From: Lonsdalea britannica | Lineage (GTDB): Bacteria > Pseudomonadota > Gammaproteobacteria > Enterobacterales > Enterobacteriaceae | Reading direction: 5' to 3' | Assembly: GCF_946477055.1 (NCBI RefSeq) | Contig: NZ_CAMKXG010000036.1 | Coordinates: 1 to 18,725, forward strand | Length of the DNA: 18,725 nt | Shown here: positions 1 to 18,570 of the stretch, piece by piece | Layout of the letters: each line of letters begins with the position of its first letter | Numbering within the stretch: position 1 is the first letter of the stretch | The notes under the pieces: generated by a model | The model's input: the letters and a program-made list of their open reading frames with translations, nothing else | Database searches by the model: none | What the model was told of the DNA's origin: nothing | Made by a program: the position numbers and the translations under genes

Positions 1-82
1 ATTTCGTCCTGTTGAAAACCGGGTTTATCTGCCACGCTTAATGACAAGCGCCGCCCCTTTTTCACCGGCTCCGCGTCCGCAT

Positions 83-114
83 GGCACGGGCCGTGCCGGG
101 TTGCCGATATCGGC
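83..114. promoter_or_regulatory. Palindromes upstream of scrB
   Basis: Two dyads lie in the 221 bases before scrB. The first is GGCACGG/CCGTGCC (83-89 and 91-97), which could fold as a 6-bp hairpin. The second is the perfect 12-bp palindrome GCCGATATCGGC (103-114). The first may end an upstream gene and the second may be a repressor site; neither has a recognised consensus. A TACAAT at 169-174 could be a -10 box but has no convincing -35. No coding segment was recognised in bases 1-212, and the reading frames entering from the left edge are too short to identify. Confidence 0.25.
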
Positions 115-221
115 CTGACGACGGGAACGGAACGCGATGATTCAGGCCTGCCGGAATATCGTGTTCGATACAATCTCGCCGTCCTCACAGGCCGTCATGC
201 ACGTCAGACAGAGTGAGAACA

Positions 222-1670
222 ATGATGAATCATCCCGTCGAGCGCGCCAGCGAGGCGCAGCCGGAATACGCTAACGTTAATCACACCTTCTACCCGACAT
301 TCCATCTGGCTCCACCGGCGGGATGGATGAACGATCCCAATGGGCTGATCTACCATCAGGGCCGCTACCACGCGTTCTATCAGCATTATCCTTATGAGCC
401 GAAATGGGGACCGATGCACTGGGGACATGCCACCAGCGAGGACATGATCCACTGGGAGCACCAACCCATCGCGCTATTTCCCGGCGGTGAGAACGAGCCG
501 GATCGGGACGGCTGCTTTTCCGGCTGCGCGGTGGATGATGACGGCGTTCTGAGCCTGATTTATACCGGCCATGTCGTCCTGCCTTCCTCTCCCGAAGAGG
601 GCGAGAAATTACAGCAGGTGCAGTGCCTCGCCATCAGCCACGATGGCCTGCATTTCGAAAAACAGGGCGCAATCCTCCTGCCGCCTCCCGGCATCATGCA
701 TTTTCGCGATCCCAAGGTGTGGCGCGAGGACGACGTCTGGTGGATGGTGGTGGGCGCCCGCAATGAACGGGATCAGGGACAGGTACTGCTCTATCGCGGC
801 GAGAGCCTGCGGGAGTGGACGCTCGACCGCGTGCTGGCGGAGAGCGACGGCGATTTGGGTTACATGTGGGAGTGCCCGGACTTCTTTCCGCTGGGCGATG
901 AGTGGCTGCTGATGTTCTCGCCGCAGGGCGTCTCGCCAAACGGCTATCTCTATCGCAATTTATTCCAGAGCGGTTGTCTGCGTGGCCACTGGCGGCCGGG
1001 AGCCGACTTCGAGATTACGCAGCCGTTCGCAGAAATGGATCTCGGTCATGACTTCTATGCGCCGCAGTCGTTCCTGGCGGCAGATGGTCGCCGTATCATC
1101 CTGGCATGGATGGATATGTGGGAATCGCCGATGCCTTCGCAGCAAGATGGTTGGGCTGGCTGCATGACGCTGCCCCGTGAGCTGAGCCTCGAAGACGGGC
1201 AGCTGCGGGTGCGGCCGGTGCGAGAAGTCGAGTCGCTGCGACGCGACGGACTGAGTATCGAACCGCAATGGATCGACTCGCCATCGCTGCCGCTGACGGA
1301 AAATGGCGATGCGCTGGAGCTGATATTGCGCTGGGATCTGAACGACAGCACCGCCGAACGTTTCGGTTTGATGCTCGGGGAGGGTATGCGCCTGTTTGTG
1401 GACTCGCAGTCCGAACGTCTGGTGCTGGAGCGTCATTACCCTGACGATGGCCTGAGCGGCTATCGCAGCGCGCCGTTACCGGCGCAATCGGTGCTATCGC
1501 TACGGATATTTATCGACCGCTCCTCGATCGAAGTGTTTGTTGGGGAAGGGGAGCGTTGCCTAAGCTCGCGTATTTACCCGCAGCCGGATCGACGTGCGCT
1601 GCGGCTGTTCGCCGATCATGGCCGCGCGCATCTCATTGGCGGAGAGCGCTGGTCTCTGCTCATGGAGTAG
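222..1670 (+). CDS. scrB: Sucrose-6-phosphate hydrolase (GH32 beta-fructofuranosidase)
   Basis: This cytoplasmic enzyme splits sucrose-6-phosphate, the product of PTS uptake, into glucose-6-phosphate and fructose. The 482-aa product has the three GH32 signatures in order: WMNDPNG near residues 35-41 with the nucleophile Asp38, FRDP at 161-164, and ECPD at 217-220 with the acid/base Glu217. A C-terminal beta-sandwich carries the late GH32 sequence DRSSIEVFVGEG. Length fits ScrB. Start choice: ATG at 222 (or 225) has the purine stretch GAGTGAG just upstream. A GTG at 213 is in frame but has no ribosome site. No scrA, scrY, scrK or scrR is visible, although scrA could lie to the left of the window. 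A plain beta-fructosidase acting on unphosphorylated sucrose or raffinose cannot be excluded by sequence alone. A hairpin terminator follows. Confidence 0.88.
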   Translation: MMNHPVERASEAQPEYANVNHTFYPTFHLAPPAGWMNDPNGLIYHQGRYHAFYQHYPYEPKWGPMHWGHATSEDMIHWEHQPIALFPGGENEPDRDGCFSGCAVDDDGVLSLIYTGHVVLPSSPEEGEKLQQVQCLAISHDGLHFEKQGAILLPPPGIMHFRDPKVWREDDVWWMVVGARNERDQGQVLLYRGESLREWTLDRVLAESDGDLGYMWECPDFFPLGDEWLLMFSPQGVSPNGYLYRNLFQSGCLRGHWRPGADFEITQPFAEMDLGHDFYAPQSFLAADGRRIILAWMDMWESPMPSQQDGWAGCMTLPRELSLEDGQLRVRPVREVESLRRDGLSIEPQWIDSPSLPLTENGDALELILRWDLNDSTAERFGLMLGEGMRLFVDSQSERLVLERHYPDDGLSGYRSAPLPAQSVLSLRIFIDRSSIEVFVGEGERCLSSRIYPQPDRRALRLFADHGRAHLIGGERWSLLME

Positions 1671-1727
1671 CCGCATAAAGGTCATACGGCCTCAGGACCG
1701 CGCTGCGGATCGTTCTCCGTCTGGAAA

Positions 1728-1757
1728 GGGAACCTGTTTTTCAGGTTCCCGGCGGGT
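1728..1757 (+). terminator. Intrinsic terminator after scrB
   Basis: A perfect 9-bp stem GGGAACCTG/CAGGTTCCC (1728-1736 and 1742-1750) encloses a TTTTT loop. It is followed by GGCGGG and then a short T run at 1757-1760. It lies 57 bases past the scrB stop. The T tract is displaced and short, so termination may be only partial. Confidence 0.55.
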
Positions 1758-1854
1758 TTTCTGCGCCTAAGATCTCAACCAATGCCCAGAAAAGGGCCAA
1801 TCTGTTTTATACTCCCCCGCTGCACCCCGATGTTTTTGCCGCCCTGCGGCGAGG

Positions 1855-1884
1855 GTGGGGTAAAAGACGGCGCGTCTGCCCCAC
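1855..1884 (+). other. Stem-loop in the rlmJ leader
   Basis: GTGGGG (1855-1860) pairs with CCCCAC (1879-1884), and AGAC (1865-1868) with GTCT (1874-1877), around a GGCGC loop. It ends 31 bases before the rlmJ start codon. A TATACT at 1808-1813 could serve as the -10 box of rlmJ, but no good -35 precedes it, and if it is used the hairpin would be in the 5' untranslated region. The role is unknown. Confidence 0.3.
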
Positions 1885-1915
1885 TCACGACTTAATCACT
1901 GGATAATCATTACCC

Positions 1916-2758
1916 ATGCTCAGCTACCGCCACAGTTTCCACGCCGGCAACCACGCCGACGTGCTCAAGCATACCGTTCAAAGCCTGATCCTCAGCGCAT
2001 TGGCGGAGAAAGACAAACCCTTCCTGTACCTCGATACGCACGCCGGGGCGGGTCGCTACAAGCTGCAAAGCGAACACGCCGAGCGCACTGCCGAATATCA
2101 GGCTGGGATTGCCCGCATCTGGCAGCGGGACGATGTTCCTGCCGAGCTGGATGCCTACATGCAGGTGGTGCGTAACTACAACCCGCAGGGACAGCTGCGT
2201 TACTACCCGGGTTCTCCGCTGATCGCCCGCCATCTGATGCGCGATCACGACCGACTGAACCTGAGCGAACTGCACCCGAGCGACTATCCGCTGCTGCGTC
2301 AGGAGTTCCAGCGTGATAATCGCGCCCGCGTGGTGCGTGAAGATGGCTATCAGCAGCTGAAAGCTCAGCTGCCGCCGCCGTCCCGCCGCGGACTGGTGCT
2401 GATCGACCCGCCTTACGAAATGAAGAGCGATTATCAGGCGGTGGTGAAGGGGATTCACGAAGGTTACCGCCGCTTCGCGACGGGCGTCTATGCTTTGTGG
2501 TATCCGGTTGTTCTGCGTCAGCAGATTAAACGGCTGCTGAAAGATCTGGAAGCGACCGGCATCCGCCGAATCCTGCAAATCGAGCTGGCCGTCTTGCCGG
2601 ACAGCGACCGCCACGGCATGACCGCTTCGGGCATGATCGTCATCAACCCGCCCTGGAAGCTGGAAGCCCAGATGAAAAGCGTGCTGCCGTGGCTGCATCA
2701 GGTACTGGTGCCGGAAGGCACCGGGCATACGCGCGTTGAATGGGTCGTGCCAGAGTAA
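1916..2758 (+). CDS. rlmJ: 23S rRNA (adenine(2030)-N6)-methyltransferase
   Basis: RlmJ (YhiR family) uses S-adenosylmethionine to methylate N6 of A2030 in 23S rRNA. The 280-aa protein matches the family length. The amino end MLSYRHSFHAGNHADVLKH is highly characteristic. The SAM-binding segment DTHAGAGRY is at residues 40-48 and the catalytic DPPY motif at 164-167. The start ATG at 1916 gives this conserved amino end; the ribosome site is weak (GGAT about 12 bases upstream). In E. coli this gene is followed directly by gor. Here gor lies 5.2 kb further on, with the rnz-rtcR-slipin-rlaP block between them. Confidence 0.95.
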   Translation: MLSYRHSFHAGNHADVLKHTVQSLILSALAEKDKPFLYLDTHAGAGRYKLQSEHAERTAEYQAGIARIWQRDDVPAELDAYMQVVRNYNPQGQLRYYPGSPLIARHLMRDHDRLNLSELHPSDYPLLRQEFQRDNRARVVREDGYQQLKAQLPPPSRRGLVLIDPPYEMKSDYQAVVKGIHEGYRRFATGVYALWYPVVLRQQIKRLLKDLEATGIRRILQIELAVLPDSDRHGMTASGMIVINPPWKLEAQMKSVLPWLHQVLVPEGTGHTRVEWVVPE

Positions 2759-2769
2759 ATTCGGCAGAG

Positions 2770-2796
2770 CCAATGCCCTGCGCCGCAGGGCATTGG
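2770..2796. terminator. Shared hairpin between convergent rlmJ and rnz
   Basis: A perfect 12-bp stem CCAATGCCCTGC/GCAGGGCATTGG (2770-2781 and 2785-2796) with a 3-base loop fills most of the 45-base gap between the two convergent stop codons. Neither side has a clear T tract, so it may work as a bidirectional block or RNA-stabilising end rather than a classic intrinsic terminator. Confidence 0.55.
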
Positions 2797-2803
2797 GCGC
2801 GCG

Positions 2804-3718
2804 CTACACCCGGAACGTCGCCAGATCGGTAGCCATGTCCGTGGCCGGGAAAATGGCCCGGCACTCCGCCAGCAGCCGCTCGCTATCTTCCTGACCATAT
2901 CGTGCGCTGATATGGGTGATAATCAAACGTCCTGCCCCCGCTTCCCGAGCCAACGTCGCCGCCTGTTCCGTCGTGGAATGACCGCGTTCGCTGGCGCGAT
3001 CGGCCATATTGGCCTCCACCGTCGCTTCGTGCACCATCACATCCACGCCCGCGGCCAGCAGGCGTCCCGCTTCCGACGGACGGGTATCGCCGAATATGGC
3101 GAGCGATCGGCCCGGCGTGGACGGCCCAAGGTAATCGGTGCCGTTTAAGGTCCGCCCATCTTCCAGCGTCACGGATTCGCCGCGCTTTAACTGCTGAAAC
3201 CATGAACCGGGGCGAATGCCCTCTTTGGCCAGTCGCGCCACGTCCAGTGCGCCGGGTTTAGGCCGCTCTTCGATGCGATATCCGACGCAGGTCAGCGTGT
3301 GCGACATGGGATAGGCCGTCACGACGCGGTGGTCGTCTTCGCAAACCGGTCCGGAGGTGACTTCGATCACCTCCATCGGATAGGTGAGATAAGAGCCGCT
3401 CAGGCTCAGCGCATTGTCGATAAATGTTTTCAGTCCGGCGGGGCCGTAAAGCGTCAGCGGCGCCTGACAACCGGCCATGGAGCGGGAACACAGCAGACCG
3501 GGCAGACCAAATAGATGGTCGCCATGAAGATGCGTGATGAAAATTTTCTCGATTTTGCTGGCGCTTAAACGCGTATGCAGTATCTGATGCTGCGTGCCTT
3601 CACCGCAGTCGAACAGCCAAAAGGCAGGGCGCGGGCCTTGCAGATCCAGCGCCAGGCTAGCCACATTGCGGGCTTTCGTCGGAATACCCGCGCTGGTGCC
3701 TAAAAATATCAGTTCCAT
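2804..3718 (-). CDS. rnz: Ribonuclease Z / RNase BN (tRNA 3'-end processing)
   Basis: A 304-aa metallo-beta-lactamase-fold nuclease, almost exactly the length of E. coli RNase BN (ElaC). The zinc motif THLHGDH is at residues 62-68 (His63, His65, Asp67, His68). Later metal ligands lie in FGDTRPSE and ITHIS. The exosite-like and GHSTTEQAA segments typical of tRNase Z are present. The family cuts precursor tRNA after the discriminator base and recognises the T-arm plus acceptor stem. Human ELAC1 of this family also trims tRNAs ending in 2',3'-cyclic phosphate so that CCA can be rebuilt. The gene begins 19 bases after the rtcR stop, in the same direction, with a GGAG ribosome site, so it is probably co-transcribed with rtcR. 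That placement differs from E. coli, where elaC and rtcR are unlinked. Confidence 0.93.
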   Translation of the reverse strand: MELIFLGTSAGIPTKARNVASLALDLQGPRPAFWLFDCGEGTQHQILHTRLSASKIEKIFITHLHGDHLFGLPGLLCSRSMAGCQAPLTLYGPAGLKTFIDNALSLSGSYLTYPMEVIEVTSGPVCEDDHRVVTAYPMSHTLTCVGYRIEERPKPGALDVARLAKEGIRPGSWFQQLKRGESVTLEDGRTLNGTDYLGPSTPGRSLAIFGDTRPSEAGRLLAAGVDVMVHEATVEANMADRASERGHSTTEQAATLAREAGAGRLIITHISARYGQEDSERLLAECRAIFPATDMATDLATFRV

Positions 3719-3737
3719 GGTGAAACTCTCCGATCAA

Positions 3738-5321
3738 TTAACGGTGCTTGACGTCATCCCAGCATAAATTGAACCGCGCCAGATACTTGCGCAGCCGGTC
3801 CGCGTCGTTCGGCTGTTTTTTCTGCTGGCGTGAGACGGCGAAAAGCTGGCGGCCCGCTTCCGACAGGCTGCTGGCCTGACGGCACACGTTCAGCACGCTT
3901 TCTAACTGGAAACGGTCAAACAGATCGCAGTCGCCGACGCTCTCCGGCAGAGGCGCTTGCTCAGCGTCGCTGGGCGCCCACTGCCGCTGGAGGCGTAAAA
4001 TCTCTTCGTCGACCAACGCGGGGGTAATGCGGCCATTATCCGCCAATGTCGCCATTCTGACGACGCTGGCGCTTAATTCTCTGAAATTCCCGCGCCACGG
4101 GGCCTGCGGTGAGCTGGCGAATCCCAGAAACTGCTGTCGCGCTTCGCGATCAAAGCGGACTTGCAGCTGCTGCGTTTCTGCAAAGCGCTGTAGCTCAAAG
4201 TCGATATTGGGCTCGATATCTTCACGCCGCTCCGCCAGTCCGGGAAGAGCAAAGGTCCACATATTGATGCGCGCGTAGAGATCGTCACGGAAATGACCTG
4301 CCGCGACCCAGCGCGGCATATCGCGATGCGTCCCCGCGATCAGTTGAAAATCGCTGCTGACTTCCTTATCCGAACCGAAGGGAAAAAAGGTTTTCTCTTC
4401 AATCGCTTTCAGCAGCATGGCCTGTTCATCCAGCCCCAGCTCGCCAATTTCATCCAGAAACAGGATGCCGCCGTCCGCTTCCCTCAACAGTCCGGTTCGC
4501 GCCTGCTGCGCGCCGGTAAAAGCGCCCCGGGCATGTCCGAACAACGTCGACATCGCATTATCTCCTCGCAGCGTCGCGCAGTTAACGGCGATAAAGCGTC
4601 CGGAAACCTGATGACGGGCGGCTTTTAATTCGAAGATCCGTCGCGCCAGAAAGGATTTTCCTGCGCCGGTCGGACCGGTGAGCAACAGCGGCGCGGAAGA
4701 ACGCAGCGCAACGCGCTCGATTTGGTCGATCAAGGCATTGTATGCCGTGTTACGCGTGGCGATGCCCGCTTTCAAAAACGAGGCAGACGCCTGCTGCTCC
4801 CGTTGAAAGCGGCTCGTCAGCGTCGCATAACGGCTGAGATCCAAATCGATAATCGAATAAAGGCCAGCAGGGGAAGGGGGGCCTTCTCGGCGGGAGACCG
4901 GACTGGTCTGCAACAGGCTGGCAGGCAGATAGCGCGCCTCCGTCAGCAGAAACCAACAGATCTGCGCGACGTGGGTGCCGGTGGTGATATGTACCAGATA
5001 CTCCTCATTCTCCGTGTCAAACGAATAGCGGGTGGCGAAGTCGAGGTAGGCGGTATAAACCTCCTCAAAATCCCAGGCATCCTGCAAATCGACGGCATGC
5101 AGGCGCACTTCAGTGCCGGGCGACAGCTCAGTGATGTCTGCCTGAACCTGTTCCGCCAGACCGATATTGCGCGACTGGTACAGCAACTCCAGCCGGTCCA
5201 CCGGCATCTCCGGCTGTTGGCACAGTGCGACGGTTGGTCGCCATTTATTCCAGCGGTTGGCCCGTTTGCCGCGCTTATCAAGGACGCTCCCTAGCGTGCC
5301 AATCACCACTCTGCGCTTCAT
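3738..5321 (-). CDS. rtcR: RtcR, CARF-domain sigma54-dependent activator of RNA repair
   Basis: RtcR is a bacterial enhancer-binding protein. Its divergent CARF domain senses RNA ends; in Salmonella these are tRNA fragments with 2',3'-cyclic phosphate. The 527-aa protein starts MKRRVVIGTLG. The CARF-like region spans about residues 1-180 and includes HITTGTHVAQ at 111-120. The AAA+ domain follows: Walker A GPTGAGKS at 216-223, the sigma54-contact loop GAFTGA at 266-271, and Walker B ILFLDE at 286-291. A helix-turn-helix-type carboxyl end (about 460-527) completes the family architecture. All key residues are intact, so it should be functional. It is divergent from the slipin/rlaP operon, and a sigma54 promoter pointing at that operon lies in the gap. 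No rtcBA genes are present in the window. Confidence 0.95.
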   Translation of the reverse strand: MKRRVVIGTLGSVLDKRGKRANRWNKWRPTVALCQQPEMPVDRLELLYQSRNIGLAEQVQADITELSPGTEVRLHAVDLQDAWDFEEVYTAYLDFATRYSFDTENEEYLVHITTGTHVAQICWFLLTEARYLPASLLQTSPVSRREGPPSPAGLYSIIDLDLSRYATLTSRFQREQQASASFLKAGIATRNTAYNALIDQIERVALRSSAPLLLTGPTGAGKSFLARRIFELKAARHQVSGRFIAVNCATLRGDNAMSTLFGHARGAFTGAQQARTGLLREADGGILFLDEIGELGLDEQAMLLKAIEEKTFFPFGSDKEVSSDFQLIAGTHRDMPRWVAAGHFRDDLYARINMWTFALPGLAERREDIEPNIDFELQRFAETQQLQVRFDREARQQFLGFASSPQAPWRGNFRELSASVVRMATLADNGRITPALVDEEILRLQRQWAPSDAEQAPLPESVGDCDLFDRFQLESVLNVCRQASSLSEAGRQLFAVSRQQKKQPNDADRLRKYLARFNLCWDDVKHR

Positions 5322-5341
5322 GTTTATCCTAATTTATAAAA

Positions 5342-5355
5342 CCTTATCGATAAGG
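5342..5355. promoter_or_regulatory. Candidate RtcR enhancer (14-bp perfect palindrome)
   Basis: CCTTATCGATAAGG is a perfect inverted repeat. Its centre lies 20 bp from the base of the divergent rtcR start codon, and about 137 bp upstream of the predicted sigma54 start site near 5486. That is the usual range for a sigma54 activator site. Binding here could also autoregulate rtcR. The RtcR recognition sequence is not known to me, so the assignment is inference. Confidence 0.45.
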
Positions 5356-5367
5356 ATAATTCATTCG

Positions 5368-5395
5368 TGTTGGCCCGAATAGCACGATGTTAGCC
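5368..5395. promoter_or_regulatory. Direct repeats spaced 20 bp upstream of the sigma54 promoter
   Basis: TGTTGGCC (5368-5375) and TGTTAGCC (5388-5395) match at seven of eight bases and start exactly 20 bp apart, close to two helical turns. An overlapping short dyad TCGTG/CACGA (5365-5369 and 5383-5387) is also present. They sit between the palindrome at 5342 and the IHF site. They could be an alternative or additional activator site. Confidence 0.3.
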
Positions 5396-5417
5396 AAATA
5401 AAATAAAAAATGAATAA

Positions 5418-5430
5418 TATCAATCTATTA
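5418..5430 (+). promoter_or_regulatory. Integration host factor (IHF) site
   Basis: TATCAATCTATTA fits the IHF consensus WATCAANNNNTTR at every position. It lies inside an A/T-rich stretch, between the putative activator sites and the sigma54 promoter, centred about 62 bp before the predicted start site. IHF bending at such positions brings enhancer-bound activators to sigma54 polymerase. Confidence 0.6.
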
Positions 5431-5459
5431 AGATTTTTATTTTGCTGTTTCTTTCCTAT

Positions 5460-5475
5460 TGGCACGAGTCTCGCA
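5460..5475 (+). promoter_or_regulatory. Sigma54 (-24/-12) promoter of the RNA/slipin/rlaP operon
   Basis: TGGCACGAGTCTCGCA matches TGGCACG-N4-TTGCA except for one base in the -12 element. The invariant GG (5461-5462) and GC (5473-5474) are 12 bp apart, as sigma54 requires. The expected start site is about 5486. The promoter points away from rtcR toward the structured RNA and slipin, which is the expected target arrangement for an RtcR-class activator. Confidence 0.85.
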
Positions 5476-5485
5476 ATATCTATCC

Positions 5486-5625
5486 CGTCGACACGTTGGT
5501 TTTGCTGTGATTCAGCACCACGCCGGCATTCCGGGAGCGGCTTCTCGCCGCTTTCCTGCGGATGTTCCGTCAAGCGTCGAACACTCGATAATTGGTTAAC
5601 TCGGGTTCGAATCCCGAATATCGCA
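5486..5625 (+). ncRNA. Candidate Y-RNA-like (YrlA-type) tRNA-mimic RNA
   Basis: The start of the predicted sigma54 transcript folds by eye into three parts. A long helix pairs 5488-5500 with 5569-5580, with one A·C mismatch and a bulged G5495. Inside it are two hairpins: TGCTG/CAGCA at 5503-5517, and a long one at 5526-5565 topped by AGCGGC/GCCGCT. Downstream is a tRNA-like module. Its T-arm TCGGG-TTCGAAT-CCCGA (5601-5617) has the canonical 7-base loop. It is preceded by ATTGGTTAAC, which carries a D-loop-like GG, and the whole is closed by CGATA (5586-5590) with TATCG (5619-5623). There is no anticodon arm, so it is not a tRNA. Bacterial Y RNAs of the YrlA type have such a tRNA-like module and accompany RtcR-controlled operons in Salmonella. 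The 3' end is uncertain. Confidence 0.6.
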
Positions 5626-5652
5626 CCTCGATATTGATAATGAAAAATAACC

Positions 5653-5785
5653 CTCCCGCCTCCGGGAAGTTGACGGTGGCCTCACGGGAGACCGACCGAC
5701 GCGCCGGGCGGCAGGCAGAAGGCTCATCCGTTCCATCAGGAACTCGTGAGCCTTCCCCCTGCGGCTTCGCCCCGACGTCCGTCTC
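5653..5785 (+). other. Second structured domain in the slipin 5' leader
   Basis: A long hairpin is visible. GCAGG (5711-5715) pairs with CCTGC (5758-5762). GAAGGCTCA (5718-5726) pairs perfectly with TGAGCCTTC (5747-5755). GTTCC (5730-5734) pairs with GGAAC (5739-5743) around an ATCA tetraloop. Further pairing is possible between GGGCG (5706-5710) and CGCCC (5768-5772), and between GAGAC (5688-5692) and GTCTC (5781-5785). A competing hairpin TCCCG-CCTC-CGGGA sits at 5654-5667. No T tract follows, so it is unlikely to be a terminator. It could be a second small RNA (a YrlB-like role), a processing site or a translational control element. Confidence 0.45.
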
Positions 5786-5821
5786 TACGTGTGCTGGAGG
5801 GACCATCAGGAGAAAAGCGTC

Positions 5822-6958
5822 ATGTTTAAGTTTTTAACCATTCGTAAAGGTCAGTTGGGTTTAGTGAGCCAAGACGGCGATTACCTGCGGGTATTGGAGG
5901 CGGGCCGACACCGCATTCCCCGTTGGTTTAATCGGCAGAAAATCGACATAGTTTCTTTGGATGGGTCTGAAGTGCTGGCGCCTTTGGACGACTATCTGCG
6001 CCAGTACCATCCGGAGTGGGTAAAGCAGTTTTGTTTAGATGTGGTATTGCCGGAAGAGGCGATCGGGCTTCGCTACGATCATGATGTGCTGCAGGAAATC
6101 CTGCCGCCCGCCACGCGCCGCCTTTACTGGCGTAAAGACGAGCATCGGCGCGTCGAACAGGTGAAAACCGACGACATTCGGGTGCCGGATACGCTGGTGT
6201 CCGCCCTGTTGCAGCCGACGCTGCGTCAGCGACACGTCATCGGCCATGCCGGCGTCTTGCTGGCGCAGGTTCCGGCCTGGCATCTCGGCCTCCTGAAAGT
6301 GGATGGCGCGGCGCAGGAACTGTTGCCGCCGGGCGTCAGCGGGTACTGGCGGTTTAATCACAGCGTAGAGGTGGAACTGATAGACACTCGTCAGCAGGCG
6401 CTGGAGGTGAGCGGGCAGGAAATTTTGACGCGCGACAAGGTCAATCTTCGGCTGAATCTGGTGGCTAACTGGCGCTACAGCGACATTTTGACGGCGTTCG
6501 GTCAGTTAACGAAGCCGGTTGATTCGCTGTATCGAGAGCTTCAGTTCGCGTTGCGTGAAGCGGTGGGAACCCGCACGCTGGATGAACTGCTGGAAAACAA
6601 GCACACCATCGATGAACGGGTGAATGCCCAGGTCCGTGAAAAAATGGCGGGTTATGGTATCGACGTCGTTTCTCTGGGAGTGAAGGACATCGTGTTGCCG
6701 GGCGATATGAAAACCATTTTGTCTCAGGTGGTGGAAGCCGAAAAGGCGGCGCAGGCCAACGTGATACGACGCCGGGAAGAAACGTCGGCGACGCGTTCCC
6801 TGCTGAATACCGCCAAAGTGATGGAGAACAACCCGGTCGCCCTGCGTTTGAAAGAGCTGGAAACGCTGGAGCGTGTGGCGGAACGCATCGATAAGATTTC
6901 CGTGTTCGGCGGATTGGATCAGGTGTTGAACGGACTGGTGAACTTGAAAGTCGCATAG
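5822..6958 (+). CDS. Slipin family protein (SPFH/Band 7)
   Basis: A 378-aa SPFH/stomatin-like protein. An amino-terminal region (1-150) contains the segment RKGQLGLVSQDGDYLRVLEAGRHRI, which is echoed around residues 156-178. The SPFH core at about 155-310 includes VEVELIDTRQQALEVSGQEILTRDKVNLRL. An alanine/glutamate-rich helix (about 303-355) is likely coiled-coil. No transmembrane segment or signal peptide is visible. SPFH proteins assemble membrane-associated rings, and slipins recur in RtcR-controlled RNA-repair operons, where their job is unproven. ATG 5822 is chosen because AGGAG lies 9 bases upstream and MFKFLTIRKG is the natural amino end. An upstream in-frame GTG at 5789 lacks this support. 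It is the first protein gene of the predicted sigma54 transcript, with rlaP 33 bases downstream. Confidence 0.88.
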   Translation: MFKFLTIRKGQLGLVSQDGDYLRVLEAGRHRIPRWFNRQKIDIVSLDGSEVLAPLDDYLRQYHPEWVKQFCLDVVLPEEAIGLRYDHDVLQEILPPATRRLYWRKDEHRRVEQVKTDDIRVPDTLVSALLQPTLRQRHVIGHAGVLLAQVPAWHLGLLKVDGAAQELLPPGVSGYWRFNHSVEVELIDTRQQALEVSGQEILTRDKVNLRLNLVANWRYSDILTAFGQLTKPVDSLYRELQFALREAVGTRTLDELLENKHTIDERVNAQVREKMAGYGIDVVSLGVKDIVLPGDMKTILSQVVEAEKAAQANVIRRREETSATRSLLNTAKVMENNPVALRLKELETLERVAERIDKISVFGGLDQVLNGLVNLKVA

Positions 6959-6991
6959 CGCGGCGACGTCTCAAAAAAGGAGGAGAGGAAT

Positions 6992-7786
6992 ATGACACGG
7001 GCATCTCAGGGCGTTAGCGAAAAAATGAAACAGCAGATCAAAGCGGCGCTGGACGATGTGGAAAAGGAGTTTGATGTCCGCATTCTGTACGCCTGCGAGT
7101 CCGGCAGCCGCGGCTGGGGGTTCGCCTCGCCGGACAGTGATTATGATGTCCGATTCATCTACGTTCATCCGCCAGAGTGGTATCTGCGGGTTGAACCGCA
7201 GCGTGACGTGATCGAGCGTCCGCTGACGGCGGAGTTGGACGTGTGCGGTTGGGAACTGCGAAAGGCGTTGGCGCTATTGAACCGGGGCAACCCCACGCTT
7301 ATCGAATGGCTGGATTCGCCGGTGGTCTACCGGCAGGATGATGTCGCGACGGACCGGCTGCGCCAGTTAATCCCCGGCTGTTTTTCCGCGCTCAAGGCGA
7401 GTCATCATTACCTCTCCATCGCGCGTAAAAACTTTCGTACCTATTTGCAGGATGAGCGCGTGCGGCTGAAAAAGTATTTTTACGTGCTGCGTTCGCTGCT
7501 GGCGGTGCAGTGGATTGCCAAGGGGAAGGGCGTTCCTCCCATGCAGTTCGAGGTGTTGCTGAACGCGATGGTAACGGACGCTGCGCTACTGGAAGAGGTT
7601 CGGGCGCTGCTGAAAATGAAATGCAGTGCGATAGAGACCGATGTGGTGGCGCGGCAACCGCATATCCACGCGTTTATCGCGCAGTCGCTGGAAACCACGA
7701 TAGACATCTCACCACCGGCAAAGGACAAACGCATCGATGCCGCGTTGGATCGCCTGCTGTTCGAAACCGTGCTGACCGGCGTTTAA
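6992..7786 (+). CDS. RlaP-type DNA-polymerase-beta-fold nucleotidyltransferase
   Basis: A 264-aa nucleotidyltransferase. The catalytic signature is GSRGWGFASPDSDYDVRF: Gly38-Ser39 for nucleotide binding, Asp50 and Asp52 for metal binding, and a third acidic candidate, Asp83, in AELDVCGWEL. This resembles the family once called YcgL-like (COG3541) and now known as RlaP, RNA repair pathway DNA polymerase beta family, found next to RtcR/RtcB genes. It presumably adds one or more nucleotides to an RNA end; the substrate is not established. A strong AAGGAGGAG ribosome site lies 6 bases before the ATG. The gene follows slipin by 33 bases in one operon, with a hairpin just after its stop. All catalytic residues appear intact. 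Confidence 0.85.
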   Translation: MTRASQGVSEKMKQQIKAALDDVEKEFDVRILYACESGSRGWGFASPDSDYDVRFIYVHPPEWYLRVEPQRDVIERPLTAELDVCGWELRKALALLNRGNPTLIEWLDSPVVYRQDDVATDRLRQLIPGCFSALKASHHYLSIARKNFRTYLQDERVRLKKYFYVLRSLLAVQWIAKGKGVPPMQFEVLLNAMVTDAALLEEVRALLKMKCSAIETDVVARQPHIHAFIAQSLETTIDISPPAKDKRIDAALDRLLFETVLTGV

Positions 7787-7792
7787 CATTGC

Positions 7793-7817
7793 GCGAGGCC
7801 CCGTAAGGCGGCCTCGC
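7793..7817 (+). terminator. Probable terminator after rlaP
   Basis: An 8-bp perfect stem GCGAGGCC/GGCCTCGC (7793-7800 and 7810-7817) has a 9-base loop and is followed by TATTTCATTGATTTC. The T tract is interrupted. It lies 7 bases past the rlaP stop and would close the slipin-rlaP operon before gor. Confidence 0.55.
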
Positions 7818-7951
7818 CTATTTCATTGATTTCAAAATTGCCGCAAGGCGCTTTGCGTTTCTGACTACAATCACGCTGCGATCTTTGCCGGAACAAGATC
7901 TCTGGCGTTACACTCTATATAACTTTTTATTCACACAACCTGGATCTCCCA

Positions 7952-9304
7952 ATGACTAAACATTATGACTATCTCGCTATTGGCGGCGGCAGCGGCGGCA
8001 TTGCCTCCATTAACCGTGCGGCCATGTACGGCAAGAAATGCGCGTTAATTGAAGCCAAATATCTGGGCGGGACCTGTGTGAACGTCGGCTGTGTGCCGAA
8101 GAAGGTGATGTGGCATGCGGCGCAGATCGCCGAGGCGATTCACAACTACGGCCCCGACTATGGTTTTGACGTCACGGTCAACGGCTTCAACTGGGATACG
8201 CTGGTGAAAAACCGCAGTGCCTACATTGACCGTATCCATCACTCCTATGACAACGTGCTGGGTAAGAATCAGGTTGAGGTTATCCGCGGTTTCGCCCGGT
8301 TCGTGGACGCCCACACGGTGGAAGTCAACGGCGAGAAAATCACCGCTGACCACATCCTGATCGCGACCGGCGGTCGTCCGACGCTGCCGGATGTCCCCGG
8401 TGCGGAATATGGCATTAACTCCGACGGGTTCTTTGAACTGGATGCGCTGCCGAAGCGCGTCGCCGTGGTGGGCGCGGGTTACATCGCCGTAGAAATCGCG
8501 GGCGTGTTGAACGCGCTGGGCGCGGAGACCCACCTGTTCGTGCGTAAACATGCGCCGCTGCGCCAGTTCGATCCGCTGATTGTGGAAACGCTGGTGGAAG
8601 TGATGCAGGCGGAAGGGCCGTCGCTGCACACCGAGTCGACGCCTAAGGCGGTAGTGAAAAACGCCGACGGCAGCCTGACGCTGCAATTGGAAGATGGCAA
8701 AACGCAGACGGTGGACTGCCTGGTTTGGGCGATTGGCCGTCAACCGGCCACCGATAACCTCAACCTTGAGGCGGCGGGCGTCGCGTTGGACGATCGCGGT
8801 TATGTGAAGGTCGATAAATTCCAGAACACCAACGTTGCCGGTATCTACGCCGTGGGCGACAACACGGGCGCGGTCGAGCTGACGCCAGTGGCGGTCGCCG
8901 CGGGACGTCGTTTGTCAGAACGCCTGTTCAACAACAAGCCGAACGAGCATCTTGACTACAGCAACATTCCTACCGTGGTGTTTAGCCATCCGCCTATCGG
9001 CACCGTCGGGCTGACCGAGCCGCAGGCGCGCGAGAAGTACGGCGACGAGCAGGTCAAAGTCTACAAATCCTCCTTTACCGCCATGTATACCGCCGTCACG
9101 CAGCATCGTCAGCCGTGCCGCATGAAACTGGTGTGCGTCGGCCCGGAAGAGAAAGTGGTGGGCGTTCACGGTATCGGTTTTGGCGTGGACGAAATGCTGC
9201 AGGGCTTCGCTGTCGCGGTGAAAATGGGAGCCACCAAGCAGGACTTCGACAACACCGTCGCCATCCACCCGACCGGGGCGGAAGAGTTCGTCACGATGCG
9301 TTAA
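7952..9304 (+). CDS. gor: Glutathione-disulfide reductase
   Basis: This cytoplasmic FAD enzyme reduces glutathione disulfide with NADPH and maintains thiol balance. The 450-aa protein is the same length as E. coli Gor. The amino-terminal FAD site is GGGSGG near residues 11-16. The redox pair Cys42/Cys47 lies in CVNVGC. The NADPH fold is [15 protein letters not shown], followed by VRKHAPLR, whose arginines favour NADPH over NADH. The carboxyl end [10 protein letters not shown] supplies the catalytic His439-Glu444 of the partner subunit. The enzyme acts as a homodimer. In E. coli gor follows rlmJ directly; here the RNA-repair block separates them, with the probable terminator at 7793-7817 just upstream. 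Confidence 0.96.
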
Positions 9305-9391
9305 TCCAGCGATGCGCGGCGCGTCATTATTCGGCAAGCGGACGGGGCGTGTCTCGCCTCGTCGGTACCGCCGCGGAGTGGTGAACCAAAA

Positions 9392-9415
9392 GCGACCACG
9401 GTTTCCAGCGGTCGC
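9392..9415 (+). terminator. Hairpin after gor
   Basis: GCGACC (9392-9397) pairs with GGTCGC (9410-9415) about 90 bases past the gor stop. There is no T run after it. It is a weak terminator or RNA-stability candidate. Confidence 0.3.
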
Positions 9416-9478
9416 ATGATTTAGCGCTTCACCTCTCAAATGCGGAGAGTCAGTCGCTCCGCCGCAAGGGGTGAAAGA

Positions 9479-9510
9479 GAGCCGCAACGCGGCTCATTTT
9501 TCTTTCTTTT
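9479..9510 (+). terminator. Strong intrinsic terminator just before the DUF1543 gene
   Basis: GAGCCGC-AAC-GCGGCTC (9479-9495) is followed directly by ATTTTTCTTTCTTTT, a classic Rho-independent terminator. It ends only 18 bases before the next start codon, with that gene's AGGGAG ribosome site immediately after it. It either ends the gor transcript or acts as an attenuator for the next gene. An upstream strand TTCACC (9428-9433) can pair with GGTGAA (9470-9475) just 5' of the terminator. Confidence 0.75.
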
Positions 9511-9528
9511 CAGGGAGTCAGAATCTTC

Positions 9529-10029
9529 ATGCCTACGCTTTTTCTTTTCTACGTCGGCGGTAGTGCGCCGGGCGCTAATATCGAATTACACGATGTGCAG
9601 TTCGCCGTGGTGGACCAACCGGAAGATGCCTTCCCCCTCCTCAAAGAAATCTGGTTCGGTGACAAAAAACAGATCCACGTCGATAGCTATACCCCGATTC
9701 AGTGGGCCGATGGCCATGACATCACGCTAAGCGAAACGCCCGCGACATCCTCACAGCGCCTCTGGTTCGTTAACATCGGCGGCTACCTGCCGGGCGAGCC
9801 AGCGGAGCTGCATCAGTTCGGCCTGTTTGTCGCACCAACGGCGGATGAAGCGAAGACGCAGGCCAAAAAAGTCCTTCTGCACGACACTTTCAAACAGCAC
9901 AAAGACGACCTGCGCGATGTGGACGACTGCCTGCTGCTGCAACAGCTGAACGGATGGCATATTCACCTGACGCCCAACCCGAATGGCGCACCCGCCGCAC
10001 CGCTCTGGCAGGGGTATTTGCCGATTTGA
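9529..10029 (+). CDS. DUF1543 domain-containing protein
   Basis: A 166-aa soluble protein of the DUF1543 family, function unknown. Family features visible are the opening LFLFYVGGSAPGANIELHD, a middle WFGDKKQIHVD, FVNIGGYLPG near residue 80, and DVDDCLLLQQLNGWHIHL toward the end. The spacing suggests two repeated alpha/beta halves (GGSAPG and GGYLPG). There is no signal peptide or membrane segment. An AGGGAG ribosome site is 11 bases from the ATG. It follows gor in the same direction, but a strong terminator lies directly upstream, so it needs its own promoter or read-through. Confidence 0.82.
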   Translation: MPTLFLFYVGGSAPGANIELHDVQFAVVDQPEDAFPLLKEIWFGDKKQIHVDSYTPIQWADGHDITLSETPATSSQRLWFVNIGGYLPGEPAELHQFGLFVAPTADEAKTQAKKVLLHDTFKQHKDDLRDVDDCLLLQQLNGWHIHLTPNPNGAPAAPLWQGYLPI

Positions 10030-10267
10030 TGGCGGACTGACGTCCGGGCTTGAACGGCCTTGCGCAGGGGATTTTTGTCGCTGAAGGTCTGCCACTCTGC
10101 CTGCGGTGTAAGCCCGAGGCGGGGCAACGAGGAAGAGAGTGTGGTGAGTTTGCGAAAAGCGTGACGGTTATTGGCTGAATGATAAATTTAATCAGCGGGT
10201 TAACGCGGTAGCAGAACAGGGCGGCGGTGGAGGGTGGCGATGCGCCTCGTCTCCGTCCGAAGAAGGG

Positions 10268-10296
10268 GCGACGCGGACTGAAACTGTCCGCGTCGC
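10268..10296 (-). terminator. Hairpin ending the PTS operon
   Basis: A perfect 11-bp stem GCGACGCGGAC/GTCCGCGTCGC (10268-10278 and 10286-10296) with a 7-base loop begins 11 bases past the EIIC stop on the minus strand. The downstream tract on that strand is CCCCTTCTTC, poor in T, so efficiency is uncertain. The rest of the 278-base gap (10030-10307), between the DUF1543 gene and the convergent PTS operon, shows no convincing gene. It holds one A/T-rich patch near 10175-10195. Confidence 0.5.
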
Positions 10297-10307
10297 CTGC
10301 CATACGC

Positions 10308-11570
10308 TTAGTGGAACAGCGCAACCACATTGCCGAGAATAATCCCCACGATGCCGAAGTCAGCGTCGCCGAACGTGGTGGCCGCCAGTCCTAACGACCC
10401 CATCAGCGGCAGCAGAATCGCCGGCAGGAAGGAGATCAGCAAACCTTGTACGAAGGAGCCGATCACCGCGCCGCGGCGTCCGCCGGTGATGTTGCCGTAA
10501 ATCCCAGCGGTCGCGCCGCAGAAGAAGTGCGGGACCAGTCCGGGAACGATCACGCTCAGGCCGAACAGTGGGCAAAGGAACATGCTGATCAGGCCCGCCA
10601 GGAAGCTACACAAGAAGCCGATAATTACGGCGTTGGGGGCAAACGGGAACACGGTCGGACAGTCCAGTGCAGGCTTGGCGTCTTTCACCAGCTTGTCCGC
10701 AATGCCCTTGAACGCGGGGACGATTTCCGCAATCACCATCCGCACCCCGGCCAGAATGACGTAGACCCCGGCGGCGAAGGTGATGGACTGAATGATGGCG
10801 AAAATCAGGTAATTTTGTCCGCCGCTCACCTGACTTTCTGTGTACTCCTTGCCTGCGAACAGCGCCAGCACGATGAACAGAATCATCATGGTCAGCGAAA
10901 TCGCGACCGAAGAGTCACGCAGGAAGTTCAGCGTTTTCGGGACTTTCAGCTCTTCCGTGGACGGGCTGCCTTTCCCAACCACTTTACCCACCAGCGCCGC
11001 CAGCAGATAACCGGCGGAGCCGAAGTGGCCGATAGCCAAATCATCCGACTGGGTGATCTTCCGGGTAAAGGGTTGCAGGATGGCAGGGCTGATGACCATC
11101 AGCGCGCCGAGAATGAGGGCGCCCGTCGCGATCAGGCTGACGCCGCGCATACCGCCGGTGGACAGGATTACCGCCAGCATGGCCGCCATATACAGCGTGT
11201 GGTGGCCGGTCAGGAAGATATATTTCAGCGGCGTAATCCGCGCCAGAATAATGTTCACAATCATGCCGAAGACCATGATCATGGCGGTTTCCGTGCCGAA
11301 GTTAGCCTGCGCCAGCGCTGCAACAACGTCGTTGTTGGGCACGACGCCGTGCATATTAAAGGAGTGCGTGAACAGCTGACTGAACACCGTCAGCGTGGAG
11401 GAAATGACATTGGCCCCGGCGATTAGAATCAAAAATCCCATGATGGTTTTCAGCGTGCCGGAAACCACCTCAGAGAAAGGTTTCTTTTGCAGCACCAGCC
11501 CCAGCAGGGAAAACAGCCCAACCAGAATGGCGGGCGTACCCAGCACATCCTTCATAATAAACTGCAACAT
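10308..11570 (-). CDS. PTS system EIIC component, ascorbate (UlaA/SgaT) family
   Basis: A 420-aa multi-span inner-membrane protein with many hydrophobic segments. It resembles UlaA in the pattern GTLKTIMGFLILIAGANV near the start, the LTGH sequence near the middle, and APNAVIIGF and GLVPHFFCGATAGIYGN later. E. coli UlaA is longer (465 aa), the difference lying at the carboxyl end. EIIC forms the sugar channel and presents the substrate for phosphorylation by EIIB. It is the last gene of a three-gene minus-strand operon (EIIA-EIIB-EIIC) with a GGAG ribosome site 6 bases before the ATG. The substrate may be L-ascorbate or another acid or polyol; no UlaD/E/F-type catabolic enzymes are nearby, so I leave it open. 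Confidence 0.85.
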   Translation of the reverse strand: MLQFIMKDVLGTPAILVGLFSLLGLVLQKKPFSEVVSGTLKTIMGFLILIAGANVISSTLTVFSQLFTHSFNMHGVVPNNDVVAALAQANFGTETAMIMVFGMIVNIILARITPLKYIFLTGHHTLYMAAMLAVILSTGGMRGVSLIATGALILGALMVISPAILQPFTRKITQSDDLAIGHFGSAGYLLAALVGKVVGKGSPSTEELKVPKTLNFLRDSSVAISLTMMILFIVLALFAGKEYTESQVSGGQNYLIFAIIQSITFAAGVYVILAGVRMVIAEIVPAFKGIADKLVKDAKPALDCPTVFPFAPNAVIIGFLCSFLAGLISMFLCPLFGLSVIVPGLVPHFFCGATAGIYGNITGGRRGAVIGSFVQGLLISFLPAILLPLMGSLGLAATTFGDADFGIVGIILGNVVALFH

Positions 11571-11602
11571 AAGCGACTCCGTTAGCGCGTCTGAACGCGC
11601 CG

Positions 11603-11869
11603 TTACAGGTTGGCAGCCAGAATTTCTCTGATCTTGTTGTTATCCAGCAGGTTGGTCAGGCCGAATATCTGGGCGTCGGATCCCTGAATCTGTTCAACGA
11701 TATCTTTGGCGCCGAAAATGATGTCCGGGCGTTCCGACTTGGCGGAGGTCAGATCGGTATGGCTGACCTCGGCTTCCTTGCCTAATTCCGCCACGATTTT
11801 TTTGACGTTCATTTCGACAATAAAGCTGCTGCCGAGCCCGTTACCGCACACAATGAGGATCTTTTTCAT
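11603..11869 (-). CDS. PTS system EIIB component (ascorbate/galactitol type)
   Basis: An 88-aa cytoplasmic phosphocarrier. The active-site cysteine Cys8 sits in the P-loop-like VCGNGLGSS, typical of the lactose/galactitol/ascorbate EIIB fold. It receives phosphate from EIIA and hands it to the sugar in EIIC. ATG 11869 is preferred to a GTG one codon upstream because the GAGG ribosome site is then 6 bases away. It lies 13 bases after EIIA and 32 bases before EIIC, so the three genes are surely one operon. Confidence 0.9.
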   Translation of the reverse strand: MKKILIVCGNGLGSSFIVEMNVKKIVAELGKEAEVSHTDLTSAKSERPDIIFGAKDIVEQIQGSDAQIFGLTNLLDNNKIREILAANL

Positions 11870-11882
11870 CACTGGCCTCGTC

Positions 11883-12326
11883 TTAATAGTTTTCGATAAT
11901 CGCCTGAATGGCGGGAAGGGAAGAAGCGGTCAGCAGCTGCTTCAGCGAATCTTCGTCGCTGAACAACGCCGCCAGCTCGGTAATCATCCGGATATGTTCG
12001 TCCCCCGTAAGGGCGCACAGCATAATCACGACCGTCACCGGGTCGTTTTCCTCCGACTCAAAATTTACCCCCTCGCGGATGCACAGCAGCGACAGCCCGT
12101 TTTGATTAGCGCCCTGCTCGGGTCGGGCGTGGGGCAGCGCCAGTCCGGGCGCAATCACGTAGTACGGACCCATCGACTGATGGGTGCTGATAATCGCCTC
12201 CAGATAGTCTTGAGTGATCGCGCCGTCAGCCAGCAACGGTTCCGCCGCCAGCGTGAGGGCTTCCTGCCAGTGGGAAACACGATCCACCAGGTGGATGGTT
12301 TTGGGCGTCAGCCACGTTGCGAGCAT
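11883..12326 (-). CDS. PTS system EIIA component (mannitol/fructose/ascorbate type)
   Basis: A 147-aa EIIA-2 domain protein. The phosphorylated histidine is His66 in GLALPHARPE, matching UlaC-type EIIA, as does the nearby GPYYVIAP. It takes phosphate from HPr and passes it to EIIB. It is the first gene of the operon, with GAGG 6 bases before the ATG. A perfect palindrome and a CRP-like site lie 60-90 bases upstream, suggesting repression by the divergent LacI-type regulator and activation by cAMP-CRP. Confidence 0.9.
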   Translation of the reverse strand: MLATWLTPKTIHLVDRVSHWQEALTLAAEPLLADGAITQDYLEAIISTHQSMGPYYVIAPGLALPHARPEQGANQNGLSLLCIREGVNFESEENDPVTVVIMLCALTGDEHIRMITELAALFSDEDSLKQLLTASSLPAIQAIIENY

Positions 12327-12386
12327 GTTGACCTCGTTACTCAGGGAAGGTGTGCCTCAATGTAGGCGAAATATCGACCGTCTTTC

Positions 12387-12402
12387 TGTGATAGGTTTCG
12401 CA
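12387..12402. promoter_or_regulatory. Putative CRP site
   Basis: TGTGATAGGTTTCGCA has the CRP half-sites TGTGA and TCGCA separated by 6 bases, one mismatch from TGTGA-N6-TCACA. It lies 61 bases upstream of the EIIA start and 2 bp from the palindrome at 12405, fitting catabolite control of a PTS operon. Confidence 0.55.
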
Positions 12403-12404
12403 AA

Positions 12405-12416
12405 GTTAGCGCTAAC
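12405..12416. promoter_or_regulatory. LacI/GntR-type operator
   Basis: GTTAGCGCTAAC is a perfect 12-bp palindrome with the central CG step typical of LacI/GalR-family operators. It is in the divergent intergenic between the PTS operon and the LacI-type regulator gene, the natural target of that regulator. The only other notable element in this 295-base gap is the adjoining CRP-like site. Confidence 0.65.
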
Positions 12417-12621
12417 ATTTCCCCGCAGAGGTGAATAATGTGCGGAGTGAGACGTCGACGACGAATGTGAATGCCTGACCGGTTATCGCGCCTGCGGCGG
12501 TGCTACCATAAGCCGCCGGTTCCGATTGGGGCAGGCGGTTGACGAGGCTTAGGCGGTGGCGCATCGGGACGATGGCCCGGACGGAAATGGCGACAGGCGA
12601 ACAGAGGGAGGCGGTGAAAGC

Positions 12622-13647: not shown

Positions 13648-13652
13648 ACGCT

Positions 13653-13666
13653 ATGCCGTCTGGCAT
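13653..13666. terminator. Short hairpin between convergent genes
   Basis: ATGCC-GTCT-GGCAT lies in the 37-base gap between the stop codons of the LacI-type gene and the aminotransferase. The stem is short and there is no T tract, so it is only a weak terminator candidate. Confidence 0.25.
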
Positions 13667-13684
13667 TGACGGGCGGGGTGCCGA

Positions 13685-14809: not shown

Positions 14810-15166
14810 GCATATCTCCTTAGGGAATGAGCTGATTTTTCTTTTAGATGAAGATACTCAGGATGGGCGGAAAGCGATACGGAAATTTTATTGCGATGCA
14901 GCGGAGTCGGACGTATCCGGCTAGATTTGTGTCAGGGGTCGAGATAACCTTACCGAAACGTATTCCGCCGTGAAACCGGGGTCTGTTCGCGGGTTCGCGG
15001 TCAGCGTCCGAGGCTCTGCCTTACGCAGGGCGCCTCTTCTACGGCCTAACGCCATCTCCCCGTCAGGAAAGCCCTATCCCGTTTACGGCGGACGGTGCGC
15101 TGTCGGGCAATGGGTCGGTCACTTTCTCGTTGGGATACGCAGCCATCTAATCGGAGAACATAAAAT
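14810..15166. other. 357-bp divergent intergenic between the aminotransferase and glk
   Basis: No gene was recognised. The stretch holds a perfect tandem 8-base repeat GTTCGCGG (14985-14992 and 14993-15000). An imperfect stem-loop joins GAGGC (15010-15014) to GCCTC (15032-15036), with inner CTGC/GCAG. Promoters for both flanking genes must lie here, but I see no convincing -35/-10 pair. The stem-loop would be in the glk leader if transcription starts upstream of it. Confidence 0.4.
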
Positions 15167-17640: not shown

Positions 17641-17728
17641 CCTGTGGTCCTCATGGGTCTAAACAGCCTCAGGATGAGAGTAGCAATATCTATACCGAAT
17701 CGCTCGCGGCAACGGAGCCTGCCCGGAG

Positions 17729-18463: not shown

Positions 18464-18501
18464 TAACAACTTTAACCTTAATCAGAAATCTATGGGGCTA
18501 A

Positions 18502-18507
18502 ATTATA
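18502..18507 (-). promoter_or_regulatory. -10 box for the carbonic anhydrase gene
   Basis: TATAAT, reading on the minus strand, lies 38 bases before the ATG. The matching -35 position (TAACCC) is poor, so an activator or another sigma factor may contribute. Confidence 0.45.
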
Positions 18508-18555
18508 CTGCGTTGTTAATCATGGGGTTAGTGATAAATCCTCATTATTTATATG

Positions 18556-18570
18556 CCCTTGAACCAAGGG
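18556..18570. repeat. Small dyad in the terminal intergenic
   Basis: CCCTTG-AAC-CAAGGG forms a 6-bp stem with a 3-base loop. It has no clear role. No gene is recognised between 18464 and the end of the window. Confidence 0.25.

Follow-up and report, generated by a model that had tools for sequence, protein, structure and literature searches.

The 18,725 nucleotide stretch of Lonsdalea britannica DNA analyzed here (RefSeq contig NZ_CAMKXG010000036.1, positions 1 to 18,725, hereafter the window) carries between rlmJ and gor a cassette in which rnz and rtcR lie on the minus strand, and a sigma54 promoter on the plus strand leads into a folded RNA, an SPFH protein ("slipin") and rlaP. We consider it fairly likely that this cassette is a ligase-free form of an RtcR-controlled, SPFH-type tRNA-damage operon, in which a ribonucleoprotein scaffold would be combined with repair of RNA ends by RlaP. 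The anatomy had been read from the letters in an original prediction and was confirmed by family models, a promoter match and RNA covariation. The same prediction held that rtcB, rtcA, rsr and prfH were missing, and none of them was found among the 16 open reading frames of the window that were scanned. The missing ligase is a property of the cassette and does not imply absence from the whole genome. The closest sequences to the window proteins were those of L. britannica LMG 26267 (L001, RlaP identity 98%), and statements on whole genomes below concern relatives of the window strain, not its own assembly.

RtcR and the divergent promoter

The rtcR gene (3738–5321, minus strand) encodes a CARF-AAA+-HTH sigma54 activator which matched the equivalog NF038308 with 836 bits against a cut-off of 650, as well as PF06956. 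Divergent from it, the −24/−12 sigma54 promoter TGGCACGAGTCTCGCA (5460–5475, plus strand) was the sole match in the window where 0.04 were expected, the pattern having been fitted to this site itself. A strict sigma54 pattern matched none of 28 regions; when a score was used instead on 26 of them, all 26 relatives' regions had a sigma54-type site at a comparable place, the best site being taken in each with no shuffle control. The equivalog match together with the divergent promoter bears out the RtcR-type control that had been proposed. A candidate RtcR upstream element, consisting of two TTATC-GATAA type repeats (5324–5359, no strand assigned), scored 13.8, the highest of 300 mononucleotide shuffles reaching 8.9. 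This element was weak at E. coli rtcBA (score −3.7, p 0.02) and failed at locus L110 (score −7.5, p 0.13). At L110, L114, L116 and L152, RtcR faces a sigma54-like site with rlaP as the first gene, without a slipin and without such an RNA. In the PADLOC defence annotation RtcR was the sole strong match.

The structured RNA

The non-coding RNA occupies approximately 5484–5800 on the plus strand and has a fold z of −3.96. RNAalifold on an alignment of 20 loci, some of them near copies, over 380 columns gave 54 pairs, of which 43 showed compensatory changes on both sides. With this structure 94.7% of cells pair; shuffles reach 83.3% and slid versions no more than 50.1%, the structure being favoured over the slid versions since it was derived from the scored sequences. 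The covariation was reached in none of 500 shuffles, and slid controls gave at most 14 such pairs. The RNA contains a 5' branched domain (5495–5574, helices 1–4, 93–99% of cells paired), a tRNA-like T-arm with a 5-bp stem and the loop TTCGAAT (5601–5617) and a 3' hairpin domain (approximately 5658–5786, helices 6–9), all on the plus strand. The loop TTCGANT was present in each of the 22 slipin loci examined, where the stem was complete (5 bp) in 10, shortened to 4 bp in 8 and to 3 bp in the other 4. The GGTTCGA motif was found in none of six slipin-less rtcR regions examined (G043 and G146 were not among them). A tentative acceptor-like stem CGATA/TATCG around the T-arm (5586–5623, plus strand) reached a p of at most 0.05 in 2 of the 22 sequences, with a mean p of 0.27.

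Co-occurrence with the slipin was seen in a survey of 149 evenly drawn family genomes, where the RNA model R1 matched 14. Thirteen of these matches were strong, each beside a slipin, and the 13 genomes are those with a slipin at E 1e-40; the fourteenth was weak (G048, 26 bits). R1 gave no match in the eight rtcR genomes without a slipin, and it detected E. coli sequences outside its training set with 78.8 and 85.1 bits. A search of 369 class-wide genomes under strict filters, with 8 candidates scored per genome, returned only G001 and a weak match of 27.8 bits in G402. The model scored the Burkholderia RNA at only 10.7 bits, so distant forms of the RNA are missed in such a search.

At four Burkholderia loci the same slot holds two tRNA-like modules. 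One is a T-arm with an acceptor-type stem, the other a cloverleaf whose anticodon arm is capped by GAAA in three loci and by AAA in one. With the closing pair opened, these anticodon loops would count 6 or 5 bases and remain short of 7. The cloverleaf exceeded the Rfam tRNA gathering score of 29 at two of the loci (42.4 and 44.0; L182, in 'evalue' mode, and L188) and was below it at L187 and L189; ARAGORN found all four RNAs to be tRNA-like. Both modules lie at L182:4360–4500, where the cap is GAAA. In the window itself ARAGORN and Rfam gave no tRNA, the cloverleaf gathering score was not reached, and YrlA Y RNA (RF02553) was not among the Rfam matches up to E 10. The designation 'tRNA mimic' therefore rests on the T-arm and on the relatives; in that sense the tRNA-mimicking RNA of the original prediction is supported by the covariation, the T-loop and the Burkholderia cloverleaf.

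The slipin and RlaP

The slipin (5822–6958, plus strand), whose family is one of ring formers, has an N-terminal beta domain followed by an SPFH/Band_7 domain (PF01145), as seen in the family match, a structure model and fold matches. The listed reading frame begins with GTG at 5789, and the ATG at 5822 behind AGGAGA fits better as the start. Membrane-anchored stomatins and slipins have a hydrophobic membrane hairpin. No membrane segment was found in the window protein by hydropathy, used without a dedicated predictor: the highest 19-residue value was 1.27, and at most 1.46 among 22 sequences. The membrane-associated platform that had been envisaged is consequently not upheld, and the slipin may be soluble. 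A phage origin of the slipin was rejected, since no match to it was found among 50,697 phage records. Some slipins of about 510–535 residues have an N-terminal domain which is apparently tandem (P0004, P0013, P0015, P0107 and L182:4734–6344).

Separated by 33 bases from the slipin, rlaP (6992–7786, plus strand) encodes a pol-beta-type nucleotidyltransferase matching Pfam RlaP (PF10127) over its full length with 314 bits; the Band_7 and RlaP matches confirm both genes as originally named. The GS...DxD motif and a third acidic residue are kept in an alignment of 33 sequences, and the predicted model had a predicted local distance difference test score of 92. A sequence search for solved relatives gave none that was convincing (best E 0.024). 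RlaP probably rebuilds RNA ends; RlaP is predicted in PMC7824862 to restore lost nucleotides ahead of ligation.

Among three Lonsdalea sequences the ratio of nonsynonymous to synonymous substitution rates (dN/dS) was 0.040–0.080 for rtcR, 0.062–0.101 for slipin and 0.122–0.152 for rlaP; for the neighbours it was 0.008–0.036 (rlmJ), 0.014–0.034 (gor) and 0.078–0.137 (rnz). Thus rtcR, slipin and rlaP are under purifying selection despite the absence of rtcB.

Ligase genes in relatives

The common order in relatives is rtcR / RNA-slipin-rtcB-rlaP, with rtcB between slipin and rlaP at L005, L006, L009, L014, L015, L118, L119, L120, L122, L145, L150 and L151. In Burkholderia rtcB follows slipin in four of four loci, and rlaP lies behind rtcB in three, the fourth stretch ending early. 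In the 13 slipin genomes of the survey rtcB was whole in 7, in pieces in G029 and missing in 5 (G001, G118, G024, G057, G062). At L119:11011–12183 (G071) a second, distant RtcB-like gene stands on the opposite strand directly after the cassette.

Counting only branches with good support, the 'no rtcB' label requires at least three changes in the rtcR tree and at least two in the slipin and rlaP trees. A single origin of the ligase-free form was supported by none of the three trees, though support is weak for many of their branches, and L113, L123 and L145 sit on long ones. The trees do not separate loss from gain; because the slipin-rtcB-rlaP order is common out to Burkholderia, loss of rtcB is favoured.

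RtcB and RtcA were sought in the genomes behind 16 handles, which represent 14 different genomes (G160 repeats G118 and G161 repeats G152); Rsr/TROVE, phage-type ligases and ThpR were left out. No RtcB was found under seven of the 16 handles (G151, G024, G057, G153, G155, G156, G158), and neither RtcB nor RtcA in G024, G057, G153, G155, G156 and G158; G158 is a metagenome assembly and G151 no longer has the cassette. Seven handles (G118/G160, G152/G161, G150, G062, G159) had only a distinct shorter form of RtcB, here labelled RtcB2, and two had RtcB together with RtcA (G154, G157). PrfH adjoins RtcB2 in every searched genome that has RtcB2. The frame of RtcB2 is open in G118, G150 and G152 and broken in G001, the nearest genome. 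The ligase-free state thus applies to the cassette alone, as RtcB2 lies beside PrfH elsewhere in Lonsdalea relatives, although no RtcB was found in some other genomes.

In Lonsdalea the RtcB2-PrfH pair is located between rlmB and rpsF (L105:6048–7783 and L104:6479–8213), the RtcB2 of the G001 copy being the frame-broken one. In two contigs of Burkholderiales metagenome-assembled genomes (L019:1–3971 and L020:8001–11496) RtcB2 and PrfH come after rlaP, and in L019 this group is preceded by the end of an rtcR gene. From these contigs, RlaP may serve the RtcB2-PrfH ligase too.

A ligase-free operon in Escherichia coli

When the promoter, RNA, slipin and rlaP of E. coli IAI1 were used as a query, 1624 of 5426 complete E. 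coli genomes (the RefSeq complete set, an uneven sample of the species) matched, 1617 of them over at least 80% of its length; among the 12 matches listed, 11 were one contiguous piece. In IAI1 the slipin-rlaP operon lies between yjbD and lysC without an adjacent rtcR, and rtcR with rtcBA is located between malT and glpG. A zeta-toxin-family gene stands next door, convergent and after the operon (L183:6236–9122). An rtcA-rtcB-rtcR query matched 5375 of the 5426 genomes, 4788 over at least 80%, as counted over the whole set. In IAI1 the slipin-rlaP operon comes with a sigma54-like site of its own and with a cassette-like upstream element scoring 15.0, the highest of 300 shuffles being 6.5. Shared RtcR control of this operon and the cassettes is suggested by these sites, and at most suggested because rtcBA and L110 score so low for the element. 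From the yjbD-lysC interval of K-12 MG1655 the operon is missing. There 156 bases of the flank still match (88%) and an RNA-like piece of 26 bases is left (E 9e-4), which suggests a deletion; work on the reference strain would thus miss an operon that matches 1624 of 5426 genomes.

RNase Z and the neighbouring genes

The original prediction had assigned a working part to RNase Z. The rnz gene (2804–3718, minus strand; equivalog NF000800, 500 bits against a cut-off of 398) lies on the same strand as rtcR at a distance of 19 bases. In the family survey rnz was over its cut-off in 62 genomes and rtcR in 21, and all 21 rtcR genomes had rnz, which adjoined rtcR in three (G001, G118, G013) and lay about 10 kb from it in G091. 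The survey of rnz beside rtcR thus showed no linkage beyond local synteny. Twenty of the 62 rnz regions, a non-random choice, were inspected, and in 11 of them, in other genera, rnz stands with rlmJ and gor without rtcR there. The arrangement is tight in eight (L129, L130, L132, L135, L136, L140, L142, and L146, which comes from G104, whose rtcR is elsewhere) and has extra sequence between in three (L139, L143, L147). The other regions comprised an rtcR remnant (L144), that of G091 (L145) and seven with none of these neighbours. In the sister Lonsdalea G151 only a piece of rlaP, and in G152 only pieces of rtcR and rlaP, remain between a whole rnz and gor; G150 had no rnz or rlmJ match, perhaps owing to an assembly gap. 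On synteny, RNase Z was rejected as a functional member of the cassette. Since rnz sits with rlmJ and gor where rtcR is absent and persists where the cassette decays, it looks like an independent, apparently old neighbour and is probably not a working part. Against its being a bystander, rtcR is also beside rnz in G013, which did not group with Lonsdalea in the rtcR tree, and rtcR remnants adjoin rnz in G131 and G083, so the site is either old or was occupied repeatedly; given the 19-base gap, rnz may also be under the rtcR promoter in Lonsdalea.

The cassette is flanked by rlmJ (1916–2758, plus strand), upstream of rnz, and by gor (7952–9304, plus strand) beyond rlaP. Deletion of gor in E. 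coli induces Rtc according to Table 1 of PMC9650030, and the adjacency is perhaps coincidental. The regions 213–1670 and 10308–17640 of the window contain genes of ordinary metabolism, including a sucrose-6-phosphate hydrolase, ascorbate-type phosphotransferase system genes, a GntR/LacI-type regulator, a phosphoserine transaminase-like gene, glucokinase and a PdxR-like regulator.

Discussion

RtcR systems are read as RNA-sealing pathways. If the ligase has been repeatedly lost while the RNA and the SPFH protein were kept, these two must be useful by themselves, and the commensal E. coli IAI1 makes the question directly testable. In the mechanism that we propose, tRNA 5' fragments ending in 2',3'-cyclic phosphate, which are reported in PMC7790460 to switch on RtcR, would by analogy with relatives do so here. 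The RNA would bind a soluble SPFH oligomer and present a tRNA elbow without an anticodon, and so could bring damaged tRNAs, or the enzymes that handle tRNA, together on a ribonucleoprotein scaffold; there RlaP would re-add nucleotides to RNA 3' ends. Sealing would take place outside the operon. A ligase elsewhere would perform it where one is present (rtcBA in E. coli IAI1 and in Klebsiella, RtcB2-PrfH in the relatives from Lonsdalea), and genomes that gave no RtcB match (three Citrobacter genomes, G024 and G057) would not seal through RtcB. A broader proposal, which we put forward tentatively and with some doubt, is that this RtcR branch has as its core effector no repair enzyme but a vault-like ribonucleoprotein, in which SPFH protein forms a soluble cage enclosing the anticodon-less tRNA mimic. 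RtcB and RlaP would be optional add-ons, the complex would act without any RtcB in some bacteria, and about 30% of complete E. coli genomes would encode it in a further RtcR-regulon operon that is unlinked to the first.

Several points weigh against the ligase-free scaffold with end repair. Binding of RtcR to the window promoter and action of RlaP on tRNA are predictions, and binding of the RNA by the slipin is a supposition. Activation of RtcR in E. coli is reported in PMC9650030 to need RtcAB, so that the system should stay silent in genomes lacking both RtcB and RtcA. No rtcR match was found in three of five Lonsdalea genomes, G151 and G152 having remnants and G150 perhaps an assembly gap. 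No RlaP match was found in G057, of which the form is rtcR, RNA and slipin only, so RlaP is optional. As to the RNA, the shuffles do not preserve kinship among sequences, and the R1 training loci came from most of the genomes later matched, so that only the lack of matches elsewhere and the matches in G029 and E. coli are independent. In most sequences the acceptor-like stem scored no better than its shuffles, and ARAGORN named the L188 RNA tRNA-Phe (aaa).

We see a lesser chance that the system is a sealing pathway still, the step after RlaP being carried out by a ligase acting in trans, either RtcB2-PrfH or an rtcBA at another locus, so that repair is completed. The open RtcB2 genes beside PrfH in G118, G150 and G152, the rtcR-rtcBA locus of IAI1, rtcB with rtcA elsewhere in Klebsiella and Superficieibacter genomes, and the placement of RtcB2 and PrfH after rlaP in the two Burkholderiales contigs all fit it, whereas the six genomes with neither RtcB nor RtcA and the broken RtcB2 frame of G001 do not. 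Rather unlikely, in our judgement, is a decoy, by which the anticodon-less mimic would soak up tRNA-cutting nucleases or their partners, the slipin holding the complex and RlaP maintaining the 3' end of the mimic, for protection and not repair. It would suit the invariant T-loop, the shortened anticodon loop in Burkholderia and the reduced form in G057, and a similar role has been raised for the YrlA tRNA-like domain (PMC7790460), but it leaves the usual co-encoding of RlaP and RtcB unexplained.

That the cassette is a nonfunctional relic, drifting after loss of rtcB, is improbable: although only remnants survive in G151 and G152, dN/dS is well below 1, the active-site residues and RNA fold are kept, and the E. 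coli form extends over at least 80% of the query in 1617 of 5426 genomes. Most improbable is the model first drawn from the sequence, in which RNase Z would cut back the 3' ends of damaged tRNAs and RlaP would restore them, with a membrane-associated slipin as the platform. The same-strand, possibly co-transcribed rnz and rtcR and the recurrence of rtcR or its remnants beside rnz speak for it, and the adjacency in only 3 of 21 rtcR genomes, the rtcR-less rlmJ-rnz-gor regions, the whole rnz beside cassette remnants and the lack of a membrane segment by hydropathy speak against it.

Comparison with known systems

A 2016 survey by Burroughs and Aravind is reported to link Band-7 modules to a cognate tRNA-like RNA, and to describe a nucleotidyltransferase encoded next to ligases of diverse kinds. 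The components of those systems are reportedly the same as here. The present analysis adds the form without a ligase, its E. coli operon and the synteny of rnz, any of which that survey may already list. Literature searches returned no title about a ligase-free form, and its absence from print is not claimed. An SPFH gene has been noted in a Pseudomonas aeruginosa rtc locus (PMC13086221), and further related literature was drawn on (PMC6514570, PMC9879122, PMC10272220, PMC11090510, PMC4012209).

RtcR and a divergent sigma54 promoter are common to the Lonsdalea cassette and to the RtcR-regulated rtcBA of E. coli and rsr-yrlBA-rtcBA of Salmonella, whereas RtcB, RtcA and Rsr are missing from the cassette, which has an SPFH protein and RlaP instead. 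Like the Salmonella operon it has a non-coding RNA with a tRNA-like part, but the RNAs differ. Compared with YrlA Y RNA (RF02553), the Burkholderia RNA of L182 has a T-arm and then a D-arm and scored 18.7 bits, far under the gathering score of 69. The RlaP of the cassette corresponds to the known nucleotidyltransferase family over the full length of PF10127 with its active-site residues kept, and differs in having no ligase beside it. The slipin shares its fold with stomatin/HflK-type SPFH proteins and the major vault protein, a likeness that shows no function, and it lacks a membrane segment by hydropathy.

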